DNA from: Ilumatobacter fluminis
GTDB taxonomy: Bacteria; Actinomycetota; Acidimicrobiia; Acidimicrobiales; Ilumatobacteraceae
Assembly: GCF_004364865.1 (NCBI RefSeq)
Contig: NZ_SOAU01000001.1
Coordinates: forward strand, 1,488,001-1,552,000
Length of the DNA: 64,000 nucleotides
Direction: 5' to 3'
In this document: positions 46,024-51,801 of the stretch, in pieces
Layout: every line of letters begins with the position of its first letter
How positions within the stretch are numbered: position 1 is the first letter of the stretch
Position numbers and translations under genes: made by a program
Notes under the pieces: model-generated
Seen by the model: only the letters and a program-made list of their open reading frames with translations
What the model was told of the DNA's origin: nothing
Database searches by the model: none

Positions 46024-46608
46024 ATGACACGCCTCACACCACTGACCCGCGACCAGCTCGACGAGACGGGCGCCGCCATCTGGGACTCGCTGGTCGAGAG
46101 CCGGAGCGGGGCGTTCGGGATGACCGGGCCAGACGGGGGACTGGTCGGGCCGTTCAACGCGTTCGTGCACGCACCGGAGATCGGTCGGAGGTTGTCGTCA
46201 CTCGGGGCGCATCTCCGCTTCGGGACGTCGATCGAACGACGGCTCACCGAGGTGGCGATCTGCACGGTCGGCGCCCATTGGCACAGCGAGTTCGAGTTCT
46301 GGGCGCACGCGCCGATGGCGACCGATCACGGCGTCGCTGCGGACGTGATCGACGCCTTGCGGGCCGGATCGCGTCCCGACTTCGAGCGAGACGACGAGCG
46401 GGTCGTGTACGAGATCGTGAGCCAGTCGCTGACGAACCATCGCGTCGACGACGCCACGTACGCAGCCGGCCGCGAACTGTTGGGCGAGGCCGGCCTGGTC
46501 GAGTTGGTGTCGATCGCCGGCTACTACTGCCTGATCTCGATGCTGCTCAACCTGTTCGCCGTCGCGCTCCCCGAAGGCGCCGAGCCGGCCTGGCCCGACC
46601 TCACGTAG
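46024..46608 (+). CDS. carboxymuconolactone decarboxylase/AhpD-like protein
   Basis: 194 residues. LTRDQLDETGAAIWDSLVESR, GPFNAFVHAPEIGRRLSSLGAHLRF, RLTEVAICTVGAHWHSEFEFWAHAP are typical of this helical family. The AhpD Cys-x-x-Cys is missing (ICTVGAHW), so it is not an AhpD peroxidase partner; a decarboxylase-like or unknown role is likelier. Leaderless start. Confidence 0.8.
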   Translation: MTRLTPLTRDQLDETGAAIWDSLVESRSGAFGMTGPDGGLVGPFNAFVHAPEIGRRLSSLGAHLRFGTSIERRLTEVAICTVGAHWHSEFEFWAHAPMATDHGVAADVIDALRAGSRPDFERDDERVVYEIVSQSLTNHRVDDATYAAGRELLGEAGLVELVSIAGYYCLISMLLNLFAVALPEGAEPAWPDLT

Positions 46609-46636
46609 CACGGATGGGGTCTGACCCCATCCGTGC
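46608..46636. terminator. palindrome between convergent genes (family D)
   Basis: 14-bp perfect arms (GCACGGATGGGGTC / GACCCCATCCGTGC) around a single T. It begins at the last base of the upstream stop codon and ends 17 bp before the stop of the convergent selenoprotein candidate. Built like family A and B elements but with its own sequence. Confidence 0.65.
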
Positions 46637-46653
46637 GCGCACAGGGCTGACGG

Positions 46654-47280
46654 TCAGACGTCGGGGCGGTCGCCGAACTGGGGTGCTTCGGTGCGGGTGC
46701 GCTTGAGTTCCCAGAAGCCGTCGGTCGTGGTGAACACGACCATGGCGTCCCAGAACTTCAGCGACTGCTCGGTGTCGGGCACCTGGGTGATGACGGGCCC
46801 GAAGATCCCACGGGTGGTGCCGTCGTCGCACGGGAACGCGATGATCGGCGTTCCCACGTCGTCGCCGACGAGGGCGAGACCGGCGTCCATGCGGGTCTGG
46901 ATCTCGTCGTCCCAGCGCTCGTCGTCGGCCGCAGCGGCGAACTTCGTGTCGAGACCGATCTTGGTGAGGGCGTCCTCGAGATCGAGGCCCTCCTCTCGGT
47001 CGTGGTGGATGCGGGTGGCGCACTGCCAATACCACGCCTGGATCGGCTCGTCGCCGAGTTCGGCCCGGATCGCCTCCATCACCCGCAGCGCCCGATGGCC
47101 GCGCATGGCGCCCTCGTAGTAGGGGCTGCCGGGTTCGGGTTGGTTCTTCTTCAGCAGGCTGATCGGCTGCCAGGTGATCTCGAGATCACGGTGCGGCTGC
47201 ACCTCGTCGACGACCCAACGGGCCGTCACCCAACACCACGGTCAAACGGGGTCGACCCAGAACTGCACACTCAACGGCAT
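46654..47280 (-). CDS. probable selenoprotein: DsbA-family/mycothiol-dependent Rv2466c-like oxidoreductase (UGA at codon 13 = Sec)
   Basis: 208 residues if TGA at 47244-47242 is decoded. MPLSVQFWVDPV-U-PWCWVTARWVVDEV then matches the Rv2466c-type head (FWFDPLCPWCW), with U13 replacing the nucleophilic Cys and Cys16 retained. Homology continues on the far side of the TGA to the family C-terminus: VGTPIIAF, GIFGPVI, FWELKRTRTEAPQF. Read as a stop, the remaining frame (from 47229) loses the active site. A SECIS-like hairpin follows the TGA. Rv2466c relatives reduce nitro compounds and disulfides with mycothiol. A TGC/TGT-to-TGA sequence error is the main alternative. No sel genes lie in this window. 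Confidence 0.75.
47208..47228 (-). promoter_or_regulatory. candidate bacterial SECIS hairpin
   Basis: On the minus strand, 13 nt after the TGA, TGACGGCC pairs with GGTCGTCG (8 bp, two G-U pairs) around the 5-nt loop CGTTG. The apical loop starts 21 nt after the UGA and has G among its first two bases. Both fit the published bacterial SECIS pattern (loop 16-37 nt downstream with an early G). Folding energy not computed. Confidence 0.55.
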
Positions 47281-47358
47281 GAGGCGAGTCTGCCCGGGAC
47301 GGGCGCTCGTCACACCTTCCGCCGTCCGGAAAGACGTCACGGATAGCCTGGGCACCTC

Positions 47359-48660
47359 ATGTCGCAGCGCTTCTATGTCGAGACGCTCGGCTGCCCCAAG
47401 AACCAGGTCGACTCCGACAAGCTCATCGGCACACTGCTCGCCGACGGCATGGAGGCGACCGACGATGCGGGACAGGCCGATCTGGTGGTGGTCAACACCT
47501 GCGCGTTCATCGGAGAGGCGCGGCAGGAGTCGATCGACACGATCCTCGCCCTCAAAGAGCAACGCCGCGACGGCGCTCGCCTCGTCGTGACCGGCTGCAT
47601 GGCCGAACGGTACGGCGACGAACTGGCTGCCGAACTGCCCGAGGTCGACCAGGTCGCCGGGTTCGGTGTGCCGGTCCACACGCCGGCGCCGTCCACGGTG
47701 GGCAAGAAGCTGATCCCGGTCTCGTCGGCGCCGCTGCCCGAGCTCGACCTGCTCAACCTGCCCCGGCCGACATCGGTGTCGCCGTGGGCGTACGTGAAGA
47801 TCGCCGAGGGCTGCGATCGCTCGTGCGGCTTCTGCGCCATCCCGTCGTTCCGCGGTCCGCAGCGCAGCCGCGACATCGACGCCGTGCTGCGCGAGGTCGA
47901 CGAACTCGCCGCACGCGAGATCGTGCTCGTGGCACAAGATCTCGCCGCCTACGGGCGCGATCGCCCCGACGAGTTGGGCAACGGCTCGATCGTGCCGCTC
48001 GTCAACGCCGTGGCCGAACGCACCGACTGGGTACGGCTGCTGTACCTGTACCCGAGCGACCTCAACGATGCGCTCATCGACGCGATCTGCGCGACCGAGG
48101 TGCCGTACTTCGACTTGTCGCTCCAGCACGTCAGCAAACCACTCCTGCGCCGGATGCGCCGCTGGGGCGACGGCCAACGGTTCCTCGACAGCATCGCGAC
48201 CATCCGCGAACGCGAGCCCGACGCCGCGTTCCGGTCGAACTTCATCGTCGGATACCCGGGCGAGACCGAGCGCGATCACGACGAGCTGCTCCGTTTCGTC
48301 GAGGAAGCGCAGCTCGACTGGTGCGGATTCTTCGCCTACTCCCGCGAAGACGGCACCTACGCCGCCGATCTCGACGGCGCCGTCGACCCGGGTCTGATGG
48401 ACGAGCGTTTGGCCGAGCTGCGCGAGCTGCAGGACGAGATCACGAGTGTCCGACGCGACGAGATGATCGGCCGCACGGTGCGGGTGCTCGTCGACGAACC
48501 GGGGGTCGCCCGGTCGGTGCGCGAGGCACCGGAGATCGACGGCATCGTCCATGTGGGGCATGATCTGACGGTGCGGGAGTTCCACGACGTCGAGATCGTC
48601 GATGCACTCGGCCCCGATCTGGTGGCCGCCGGCGCGTCGTTCGAGGAAGACGACGACTGA
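47359..48660 (+). CDS. rimO: ribosomal protein S12 methylthiotransferase RimO
   Basis: 433 residues. UPF0004 domain with Cys ligands (ETLGCPKNQVDS, NTCAFIGEA, VTGCMAERYG), radical SAM cluster CDRSCGFC, SLQHVSKPLLRRMRR, NFIVGYPGETE, and a C-terminal TRAM domain. The LGCPKNxVDS head distinguishes RimO from MiaB. It adds a methylthio group to Asp of S12. TAGCCT 9 nt upstream. Stop overlaps pgsA (TGATG). Confidence 0.94.
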   Translation: MSQRFYVETLGCPKNQVDSDKLIGTLLADGMEATDDAGQADLVVVNTCAFIGEARQESIDTILALKEQRRDGARLVVTGCMAERYGDELAAELPEVDQVAGFGVPVHTPAPSTVGKKLIPVSSAPLPELDLLNLPRPTSVSPWAYVKIAEGCDRSCGFCAIPSFRGPQRSRDIDAVLREVDELAAREIVLVAQDLAAYGRDRPDELGNGSIVPLVNAVAERTDWVRLLYLYPSDLNDALIDAICATEVPYFDLSLQHVSKPLLRRMRRWGDGQRFLDSIATIREREPDAAFRSNFIVGYPGETERDHDELLRFVEEAQLDWCGFFAYSREDGTYAADLDGAVDPGLMDERLAELRELQDEITSVRRDEMIGRTVRVLVDEPGVARSVREAPEIDGIVHVGHDLTVREFHDVEIVDALGPDLVAAGASFEEDDD

Positions 48661-49256: not shown

Positions 49257-50468
49257 GCTGGATTCCAGTGGTCAGTGCAACACGAGTTGGTCGAAGACTT
49301 CTAATGGTGTCAGGAAGCTGTGGCGTTTGCGTGGCCGGTTGTTGAGTTTGTGAGCGATCGCGTCGAGTTGTTCTTGGCTGAACTGGGACAGGTCACTGTC
49401 TCTGGGTAGGTATTGGCGTAGCAGCCCGTTGATGTTTTCGTTGCTGCCTCGTTGCCAGGGAGCGTGCGGGTCGCAGAAGTACACCTTCATGTCGGTGGCC
49501 ATCGTGAACCGGCGGTGAGCAGCCATTTCGGTGCCGCGATCCCAGGTGAGTGTTCCCTGCAGCACGGCCGGCAGGGTTCGGACACGTGCTGCGATCGCGT
49601 CCGCGACGTGATCGGCTTGTTTGGTGCCAAGTTTGGACAGCATCACGAGTCCGGTGGTGCGCTCCACGAGCGTGCCGACCTGGGAGCCGTTGTTGCGACC
49701 CATGATCAGATCGCCTTCCCAATGGCCAGGCACCAGACGGTCCTCGATGTCGTCGGGACGTTCCGCGATCGACACCAGGTCCGGGATCGAGGACTGGTCC
49801 CGGTTCCGAGCCGTGACCGGGCGGGCCCGGCGATGCTGACGTTGAGTACGTAGACACGCAGCGAGTTCTTTACGGAGCCCGCCCCGACCATGCACATACA
49901 ACGCTCGATAGATCGTTTCGGGGGACACTCGCATCGTCTCGTCGTCGGGAAACTCGAGCACCAGCCTGGCACTGATCTGTTCCGGCGACCACTGCTCGAG
50001 ATCAAGCCAGCACGCAACCACCATCGCCAGCAACGGGAACTGCTCGAACTTGAACAACTTCGGTCGCTTCGCACGCTGCTGAGCGGCCAGATGCGCAGCA
50101 ACCGCCCGATACTCGTCGCGGCCACCGTTGTTGTTGATCTCACGGCCCACCGTTGAACGATGCCGATCAATCCGACGCGCGATCTCAGCGTTGGAAACCC
50201 CTTCCACGATCCCACGAGAGATCTCTTCCCGGCCGGTCAACGTCAACCGGCTCACTGATGTGTCACGAACCTGTTTCTCCACCTCGGGATCATGAGCAAT
50301 CCGACGCACCGTTGTCGAAGACAACCCGAACCGTCGAGCCACCCCAGCTTGTGTGTGACCATCGGCCACCAACAACCACACCCAACAACGAACCTCATCA
50401 GCAACACGCTGCCTCGGCATGAACACCTCCAAAAGATCAAGGTGTTGCAACGACCCTCGGAACCCAGC
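49257..50468 (-). mobile_element. IS30-family insertion sequence (1212 bp)
   Basis: 28-bp imperfect end homology (22 of 28 match) from GGCTGGATTCC at the left and GGCTGGGTTCC on the complement of the right. Taking GCTGG as the terminus gives a 3-bp target duplication CAG (49254-49256 and 50469-50471), normal for IS30. One intact transposase. The two flanks rejoin into a perfect copy of the palindrome found at 50516-50540, so the element landed in the middle of one copy of a paired palindrome. Confidence 0.88.
49272..50420 (-). CDS. IS30-family transposase
   Basis: 382 residues. N-terminal HTH pair (GVARRFGLSSTTVRRIA; EISRGIVEGVSNAEIARRIDRHRSTVGREI) and a DDE catalytic domain: GHWEGDLIMG (D1), LTWDRGTEMA (D2), GSNENINGLLRQYLPRDSDL (E). 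The frame stays open far upstream, into and beyond the IS edge, but MPRQRVADEVR at 50420 gives the family's length. Appears intact, so probably active or recently so. Confidence 0.93.
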   Translation of the reverse strand: MPRQRVADEVRCWVWLLVADGHTQAGVARRFGLSSTTVRRIAHDPEVEKQVRDTSVSRLTLTGREEISRGIVEGVSNAEIARRIDRHRSTVGREINNNGGRDEYRAVAAHLAAQQRAKRPKLFKFEQFPLLAMVVACWLDLEQWSPEQISARLVLEFPDDETMRVSPETIYRALYVHGRGGLRKELAACLRTQRQHRRARPVTARNRDQSSIPDLVSIAERPDDIEDRLVPGHWEGDLIMGRNNGSQVGTLVERTTGLVMLSKLGTKQADHVADAIAARVRTLPAVLQGTLTWDRGTEMAAHRRFTMATDMKVYFCDPHAPWQRGSNENINGLLRQYLPRDSDLSQFSQEQLDAIAHKLNNRPRKRHSFLTPLEVFDQLVLH

Positions 50469-50471
50469 CAG

Positions 50472-50540
50472 GCACCTTCTGGCGAGGCACCTCGGGGAGA
50501 CAGGACCTGCAGTGGCCAGAAGGTGCCTGACCCCTTCTGG
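50472..50540. repeat. family E palindromes: split copy and intact copy
   Basis: The intact copy is 50516-50540 (arms CCAGAAGG / CCTTCTGG with a 9-nt centre). The other copy is split by IS30: its left 14 bases are 49243-49256 and its right 11 bases are 50472-50482. Rejoined, it is the exact reverse complement of the intact copy, the same head-to-head pairing as family A. The intact copy ends 5 bp before the TAGAAC box of cinA. Confidence 0.8.
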
Positions 50541-50559
50541 CGTGCGGTAGAACTGGCGC

Positions 50560-51801
50560 ATGCGTTGTGACGTGGTGGCCGTGGGGACCGAGCTGCTGCT
50601 CGGCCAGATCATCGACTCGAACTCGGCGTGGATCGGCGGGGAACTCGCCGCCCACGGGATCGACTCGCTCGTGCAGGTCAAGGTCGGCGACAACATCGAC
50701 CGGATCGTGCTCCAGCTCGAGCGGCGCCTGGCCGAGGCCGACGCCGTCATCATGTGCGGCGGTCTCGGACCGACCCACGACGACCTGACCCGTGAGGCGA
50801 TCGCCCGGGTGATGGGCGTCGAACTCGAACTGGACGAGGCGCTCGGCGACGTCATCCGCGACATGTTCGCCAGCCGAGGCCGCCGGATGCCCGAGAACAA
50901 TCTGCGCCAGGCGATGGTGCCGGCCGGCGCCTCGATCATCCCGCAGACGCGCGGCACCGCACCCGGTCTCGTCTGCCCCGTGACGGTCGACGGCGTGGAG
51001 AAGGTGGTGTTCGCCGTGCCCGGCGTGCCGCACGAGATGCACGACATGTTCCACCGGGGCATCATCCCCGAGTTGCAGCGACGTTCGGGGGAGCGGTTCA
51101 CCATCGCCAGTCGGGTGCTGCTCACCTGGGGCGAGAGCGAGAGCGGGCTGAACGAGCGGCTCGACGACGTGATCGCCGAACTCGACGAGGCGGGCAACCC
51201 GACGCTCGCGTTCCTCGCCAGCGGCTGGAACGGGCTGAAGGTCCGTCTCACCGCCAAGGGCGCCGACGCGGTCGAGGCCGCCCGGATCCTCGACCCGTGG
51301 GAGGAACGGTTGCGGGCCGAACTCGGCGACCTGGTGTTCGGCACCGGCGACGAGACGATCGAGTCGGTCGTGCTCGACCTGATGCGGCAGAAGGGGTGGT
51401 CGATCGGGTGCGCCGAGTCGGTCACCGGTGGTCTGGTCGGCGGGCGCATCACGGCCGTGTCGGGCTGCAGCGACGTGTTCCGTGGCTCGATCGTGTCGTA
51501 CGCGAGCGAGGTGAAGTACGACCTGCTCGGCGTGCCGGAGGGGCCGGTCGTGTCGGAGGAGTCGGCGCTGGCGATGGCGCACGGCGCCCGCCGGGTGCTC
51601 GGTTGCGACGTGGCGCTGTCGCTCACCGGTGTCGCCGGACCCGGCACGCAGGACGGTCAGCCCGCCGGCACCCTGTTCTGCGGCCTGGTGTGGCCCGACG
51701 GAGAAGCCACCCAGTACTTCCGCCTCCCAGGCCTGCGCGAGCAGATGCGTCAGTTCAGCGTCATCAACTCCTTGAACTGGCTCCGCACCACCCTCACCTG
51801 A
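50560..51801 (+). CDS. cinA: CinA-family protein (competence/damage-inducible; nicotinamide-nucleotide amidase)
   Basis: 413 residues. N-terminal MoaB-like domain (VVAVGTELLLGQIIDSNSAWIGGELAAHG, MCGGLGPTHDDLTREAIARVMG) and C-terminal PncC-like amidohydrolase domain (GWSIGCAESVTGGLVGGRITAVSGCSDVFRGSIVSYASEVK, SLTGVAGPGTQDGQPAGTLFCGL). Proposed role: deamidation of NMN and repair of ADP-ribose-type products. TAGAAC 7-nt-spaced box upstream suggests it is transcribed independently of the IS-disrupted pgsA side. Confidence 0.93.
   Translation: MRCDVVAVGTELLLGQIIDSNSAWIGGELAAHGIDSLVQVKVGDNIDRIVLQLERRLAEADAVIMCGGLGPTHDDLTREAIARVMGVELELDEALGDVIRDMFASRGRRMPENNLRQAMVPAGASIIPQTRGTAPGLVCPVTVDGVEKVVFAVPGVPHEMHDMFHRGIIPELQRRSGERFTIASRVLLTWGESESGLNERLDDVIAELDEAGNPTLAFLASGWNGLKVRLTAKGADAVEAARILDPWEERLRAELGDLVFGTGDETIESVVLDLMRQKGWSIGCAESVTGGLVGGRITAVSGCSDVFRGSIVSYASEVKYDLLGVPEGPVVSEESALAMAHGARRVLGCDVALSLTGVAGPGTQDGQPAGTLFCGLVWPDGEATQYFRLPGLREQMRQFSVINSLNWLRTTLT

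Follow-up and report, generated by a model that had tools for sequence, protein, structure and literature searches.

An in-frame TGA at the active site of an Rv2466c-like oxidoreductase of Ilumatobacter fluminis very probably encodes selenocysteine

The minus strand of the 64,000-nucleotide stretch of Ilumatobacter fluminis DNA analysed here (the window) holds a gene for a DsbA-family oxidoreductase with a TGA codon at its active site, which raises the question of whether this codon breaks the gene or is read as selenocysteine (Sec, U), as the initial annotation had proposed. Taken together, the evidence makes us highly confident that the gene (46654-47280, minus strand) encodes a selenoprotein, a 208-residue Rv2466c-like enzyme in which SelB and an mRNA hairpin would direct the insertion of Sec13. 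Sec insertion at residue 13 is very likely, as judged from the reading frame, conservation, the machinery present in the genome and a constrained hairpin; the checks proposed beforehand that sequence data could answer favoured selenocysteine, and none of the contrary outcomes named with them appeared.

An interrupted reading frame of the Rv2466c-like family

Minus-strand positions 47280-46654 were read as a single frame, of which the TGA at 47244-47242 is the sole internal stop. As claimed beforehand, the ATG at 47280 opens MPLSVQFWVDPV (12 codons), followed by this TGA, by PWCWVTARW and the remainder of the protein, and by a terminal TGA at 46656-46654, a place that is taken by TGA, TAA or TAG in relatives. 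When the protein was written with C at the TGA, it matched the Rv2466c-like family PF22234 at 134.5 bits (cut-off 27, E 6e-39) over positions 1-180 of 180, and solved Rv2466c chains aligned with its residues 6-203 (E 2.5e-38). Both matches lie on the two sides of the TGA, which bears out the family homology proposed for the codons preceding it, and residue 13 falls on the first Cys of the Rv2466c C-P-W-C motif, the nucleophile position to which the TGA had been assigned. PF01323 was also matched (29.8 bits, cut-off 25.6), and the NCBIfam search returned no family for the protein.

The fold predicted from an alignment of 20 proteins had a mean pLDDT of 95. The ten structures that matched it best were Rv2466c and a homologue from M. 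leprae (TM 0.77-0.89); a prediction made without the alignment was poor (pLDDT 39.6) and was set aside. In the predicted fold, residue 13 directly precedes the first helix (14-27). The TGT at 47235-47233 encodes Cys16 of the U-P-W-C motif, to which a resolving role is assigned by analogy, and G143-T144-P145 (46854-46846) forms the conserved Gly-x-Pro of the thioredoxin fold, with G143 and P145 invariant in the 20 proteins; P145 is presumably the cis proline of that fold. The same genome encodes a Cys paralogue at 4574381-4575010 (L010:1501-2130), with the motif C-P-F-S and without the resolving Cys, for which NCBIfam likewise returned no family.

A GTG-started ORF of 191 aa without the active site (46654-47229, minus strand) starts five codons past the internal TGA, and a gene caller that lacks Sec could choose it. 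The divergent neighbour at 47359-48660 (plus strand) is rimO (TIGR01125, 390.5 bits, cut-off 356.95), which adjoins the TGA gene in 8/8 same-genus TGA loci. The convergent neighbour at 46024-46608 (plus strand) resembles, by eye, the carboxymuconolactone decarboxylase/AhpD type, and its product matched no Pfam or NCBIfam family at 1e-3. Further along the window, a long ORF on the minus strand (49275-51647) matches an IS30 family transposase in its residues 498-774 (NF033563, 277 bits), while its front part lies antisense to a gene resembling cinA by eye.

Conservation of the TGA and its exchange with cysteine

The initial annotation had proposed that close relatives would exchange U and C at the TGA column, and this was observed. 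In a family search of 200 sampled genomes, of which 193 matched the protein, the best-ranked 30 loci were read; the column codon was TGA in nine (L009, the locus under study, with L065-L070, L072 and L076) and TGC or TGT in the other 21. Within the genus, a TGA copy was present in 8/10 genomes, the remaining two being 83% and 74% complete, and the nearest relative was that of Ilumatobacter sp. HKST-UBA13 (L014, 95% identity).

Furthermore, the exact pattern D-P-x-TGA-P-x-C-W, a strict one that would miss other motif variants, was found in 48/395 sampled genomes of the class, with no match for the reversed-pattern control. All 48 matches were read and had frames open for 193-224 codons past the TGA; they resemble the family by eye, and the three submitted to Pfam (L116, L126, L134) all belonged to PF22234. 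In a sample of 396 genomes of the phylum, 38 of them from the class, the pattern occurred in two, both class members, and thus in 0/358 sampled phylum genomes outside the class. The pattern search and the nine family loci, with two genomes in both sets, place the TGA in 55 different genomes. The same TGA in so many genomes, with frames open for at least 193 codons, is therefore beyond chance, and the decayed downstream frames among relatives that had been named as a contrary outcome were not encountered. As a separate observation, L116-L120 form a far branch that bears the TGA and still belongs to PF22234 (95.9 bits for L116), possibly with a bulged version of the hairpin described below; these loci may represent a further, second lineage of DsbA-like selenoproteins.

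Six U/C changes are required on a tree built from 37 U and 42 Cys proteins, and no fewer than three of these are imposed by well-supported branches; the support values had yet to settle completely, and several long branches of this tree are uncertain. L076 (Sec, genome G064) and L077 (Cys, G012) form a well-supported pair within one genus. At L077 the codon is TGC (minus strand, 2100-2098), and the 36 nt that follow include the 19-nt hairpin, identical letter for letter. Of the loci read, this one is apparently the likeliest to have switched recently from Sec to Cys and to retain its SECIS as a relic. Regarding gene order, rimO was detected in 9/23 loci tested and missed in 14, with flanks of about 1.5 kb or less. 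The Cys copy L074, from another genus, also adjoins rimO, as the same-genus TGA genes do, and the exchange between Sec and Cys therefore seems to take place at a single locus.

Selection on the part of the gene past the hairpin was estimated against the nearest species (L065), with dN 0.033, dS 0.40 and a ratio of 0.08. Ratios of 0.20-0.38 were obtained for the window gene against L066-L068 and for the pairs L070-L072, L066-L067 and L076-L077, and of 0.67-0.82 for the window gene against L069, L070 and L072, comparisons in which dS is probably saturated or lowered by codon bias.

The hairpin and the selenocysteine machinery

The hairpin claimed in the initial annotation, with a stem of 8 bp beginning 13 nt past the TGA and the loop CGTTG, was confirmed at 47228-47208 (minus strand). 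It reads GACGGCC-CGTTG-GGTCGTC, with an additional U-G pair below and a C-G pair around the loop; in the alternative centroid form, the C-G pair closes the loop, giving 9 bp and the loop GTT. The published bSECIS model, as given in a 2026 review (PMC13188914), has four constraints, and the hairpin lies within all of them, answering the SECIS check that had been suggested. The model has a loop of 3-9 nt on an upper stem of 4-16 bp, and here the sizes are 9 bp with 3 nt or 8 bp with 5 nt. A G is placed within the first two loop positions, mostly as N1-G-[G/U]-N-N2 with N1-N2 paired, and the loop CGTTG follows this rule, with GTT enclosed by the C-G pair. The distance from UGA to loop is 16-37 nt in the model and 21-22 nt here, and the MFE of at most -7.5 kcal/mol compares with -14.3 kcal/mol for 30 nt of this gene (PMC13188914).

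An Rfam search over 46500-47500 returned no SECIS family, its single match being far under the gathering score. In this GC-rich stretch, the hairpin alone folded no better than shuffles (z -0.53, 54/200 shuffles as good), and the support for it is consequently comparative. All seven core pairs were present in 32/37 U genes vs 1/42 Cys genes, the latter being L077; the U genes without the full core were L116-L120, with 4-5 of 7 core pairs in ungapped comparison. Second copies (L014, L123 and L124 among U; L071, L074, L078 and L079 among Cys) were left out of this set. The mean energy of the stretch was -13.1 in the 37 U genes vs -6.9 in the 42 Cys genes.

For pairing, 50 U sequences (44 distinct) were used, without L116-L120 and second copies, together with the 22 of the 42 Cys rows that belong to the closest groups. 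Paired cells amounted to 97.2% in the 44 distinct U rows vs 56.6% in the 22 Cys rows, and slid versions of the helix paired at 15-64%. Pair 21-33 was GC in 41 rows and UA, AU and GU in one each, L126 and L155 having both sides altered through synonymous third positions, that is, in a compensatory manner. Six further pair types were observed, a number attained by 0/500 shuffles; the pairs with double changes came to one, from two sequences, and 31/500 shuffles also yielded one. With 32 sequences only, five measures were each attained by 15/500 shuffles. The Cys rows paired weakly above their own shuffles (14/500 as high), which is expected from relics in some rows or from relatedness.

Codon usage provides further evidence of constraint. 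Codons 5-11 past the TGA include six four-fold degenerate positions, at each of which 26-31 of 30-32 U genes use the same codon (GTG 30/30, ACG 31/32, GCC 30/32, CGT 26/32, GTC 30/31 and GTC 30/32), and ACG, GCC, CGT and GTG are used by at most half of the Cys genes at those positions. The Pro and Cys codons before this segment vary among the U genes (commonest 19/32 and 18/32), as do the four- and six-fold codons directly after the segment (GTG 17/30, CCG 15/30, CGT 17/30). More distal near-fixed codons, mostly two- or three-fold, also exist and count against this argument; CCG at codon 26 past the TGA, outside the hairpin, is the most striking of them, accounting for 31/31 Pro codons of the U genes.

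The search for Sec machinery suggested by the initial annotation found selA, selB, selD and a tRNA-Sec in the genome, which is one contig of 4,775,416 bases; all four matches exceed the curated cut-offs of their models. The tRNA-Sec lies at 850365-850456 (66.6 bits, cut-off 47; anticodon tca by ARAGORN), SelA at 766810-767862 (TIGR00474, 391 bits, cut-off 267.9) and SelD at 3521124-3522032 (324.6 bits, cut-off 125). SelB, adjoining SelA at 765588-766661 (272 bits, cut-off 242.25), is matched over model positions 2-342 of 581, within an open frame of 766 codons.

Regarding co-occurrence, SelA was detected in 46/48 pattern genomes vs 220/347 others (Fisher p 8e-7, a value that ignores relatedness); the two pattern genomes without a SelA match were G471, which has tRNA-Sec, and G521, which is 68% complete and has neither. 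The seven further TGA genomes from the family search all had SelA, as a fragment in G079. Since SelA is frequent in the class (266/395), this co-occurrence is just moderately telling. A tRNA-Sec of at least 63 bits was found in 48/55 TGA genomes vs 0/20 SelA-negative genomes, with stricter filters used; the TGA genomes without a strong match were G416, G432, G480, G499, G521, G529 and G533 (47.7 bits in G533). Three of the 20 SelA-negative genomes (G226, G002, G281) had matches of 47.4-48.7 bits, barely above the cut-off of 47 and probably due to other tRNAs, and for this reason the score gap separates the two sets better than the cut-off does.

Alternative readings, proposed function and known relatives

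Three other readings of the TGA were weighed, and conservation, selection and the Sec machinery spoke against them. Were the TGA a true nonsense codon, the rest of the gene would decay or serve as a short protein from the GTG at 47229, and the 191-aa ORF beginning five codons beyond the TGA is in keeping with this; such a pseudogene is nevertheless very improbable, given that the TGA persists in 55 genomes with open frames downstream, that dN/dS to the nearest species is 0.08, and that a short protein would have no need of the conserved N-terminal strand and U-P-W-C. A code change or plain read-through, by which the codon would stand for Cys, Trp or some other amino acid but not Sec, agrees with the Cys that relatives have at this position. 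Yet TGA terminates this very gene and those of several relatives, the genome has a complete Sec system, and the synonymous constraint beside the TGA corresponds to a hairpin fitting the SECIS model, so we regard this decoding as extremely improbable. Although a single base separates TGA from TGC or TGT, the codon is common to separate assemblies of dozens of species; a sequencing error in a Cys gene is refuted by these relatives and its probability is practically negligible.

According to the selenoprotein reading, SelB carrying Sec-tRNA would bind the mRNA hairpin at 47228-47208, and the ribosome would decode the UGA, 13 nt 5' of it, as selenocysteine, yielding a product of 208 residues whose active site reads Sec13-Pro-Trp-Cys16. 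If the enzyme works as its Cys counterparts in the family do, Sec13 would be the nucleophile that attacks disulfides or mixed disulfides, and the adduct would be resolved by Cys16 as a selenenylsulfide, which a low-molecular-weight thiol may then reduce; a role in oxidative stress is suggested. At the attacking position, Sec is expected to lower the pKa and to let the enzyme recover more easily after oxidation. Mycothiol is the low-molecular-weight thiol of well-studied actinobacteria, and a ligase gene at 2006015-2007121 (L135:1516-2622) scored 417-420 bits as MshC (cut-off 485) and 335 as CysS (cut-off 340). The TGA in the MshC-like match lies within its first five codons, 5' of the ATG, where it most likely terminates an upstream frame; the ligase is possibly a divergent mycothiol enzyme. 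As the sole MshC candidate found scores below the cut-off, a mycothiol link of the present enzyme is no more than plausible. A selenoprotein served by another thiol or by thioredoxin, in which mycothiol plays no part, is less likely than not, yet has an appreciable probability: the candidate, at 417 of 485 bits, could be another CysRS-like ligase, and family members also occur in records whose titles name other phyla, such as Desulfatiglandales (L031), whereas the candidate scores higher as MshC (417 bits) than as CysS (335 bits).

The Cys members of the family have been described as thiol reductases of the oxidative stress response: their first Cys makes the attack, and resolution involves mycothiol or the second Cys (PMC11841060, PMC8280269). 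In this context, Rv2466c/Mrx2, a mycothiol-dependent nitroreductase and thiol reductase according to the same texts, with Cys19 as nucleophile and Cys22 as resolving residue (PMC8280269), is similar to the present protein in fold, length, P-W-C-W context and nucleophile position. The two differ in that the nucleophile is Cys19 in Rv2466c/Mrx2 and would be Sec13 here, and in that mycothiol dependence, reported for the former (PMC11841060, PMC8280269), is a proposal for the latter.

Selenocysteine in DsbA-like proteins has precedents. A Sargasso Sea study describes Sec in DsbA-like UxxC proteins (9 sequences, COG2761; PMC1088965), PMC5029168 tabulates a "DsbA-like protein" entry with the numbers 41 and 45, and the 2026 review lists DsbA-like form 1 selenoproteins with UxxC and PF01323, its main text making no mention of PF22234, Rv2466 or mycothiol (PMC13188914). 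Going by these published descriptions, the form 1 proteins share with the present protein the DsbA fold, the Sec in UxxC and a match to PF01323, but the best family of the latter is PF22234. A Sec-containing FrnE of the DsbA superfamily is reported from green algae (Mamiellophyceae) (PMC6627142); it is likewise a DsbA-superfamily enzyme with Sec, but eukaryotic, and the Deinococcus FrnE structures gave a TM of about 0.5 to the present model, worse than Rv2466c. In the open-licence literature searched, we found no paper joining Rv2466c with selenocysteine, nor one joining the terms selenoprotein, DsbA-like and actinobacterial. The present protein is thus an apparently new, class-wide addition, in the Rv2466c subfamily, to the known DsbA-like UxxC selenoproteins. 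Tentatively, and with somewhat less than even confidence, we suggest a distinct Sec subfamily that would be ancestral to much of Acidimicrobiia, repeatedly lost to Cys and active as a selenium-dependent mycothiol (Mrx2-type) reductase.

If this were true, the enzyme would be the first selenoenzyme linked to mycothiol, and its gene possibly among those that maintain Sec decoding in these actinobacteria. Across this class of environmental actinobacteria, annotations of the redox enzyme can easily lack the active site, which automatic pipelines readily miss because the early TGA, common to many relatives, resembles a gene-breaking stop. Moreover, natural Sec/Cys pairs such as L076 (Sec) and L077 (Cys, with the intact hairpin) of one genus offer a clean system for Sec gain and loss, and allow the benefit of selenium in an Rv2466c-type enzyme to be asked about.

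Other selenoprotein genes near selAB and selD were sought in a rough scan of 53,000 bases (L137-L139) for in-frame TGA in redox-like motifs, which gave many chance frames, all but one dismissed by eye; the remaining one, a UHxP-like string at about 16.6-16.8 kb of L137, was mimicked by frames of a short tandem repeat array and was rejected as an artefact. Group f50 contributes 13 pattern genomes; in ten of them (loci L142, L144 and L147-L154, of G453, G504, G496, G449, G375, G273, G362, G471, G454 and G333) roughly 7-12 kb of one contig separate the gene from tRNA-Sec, and in the remaining three the two are on different contigs. Finally, an ORF at L013:3176-4711, subtilase-like by eye, has a long C-terminal run of WSGQA repeats.
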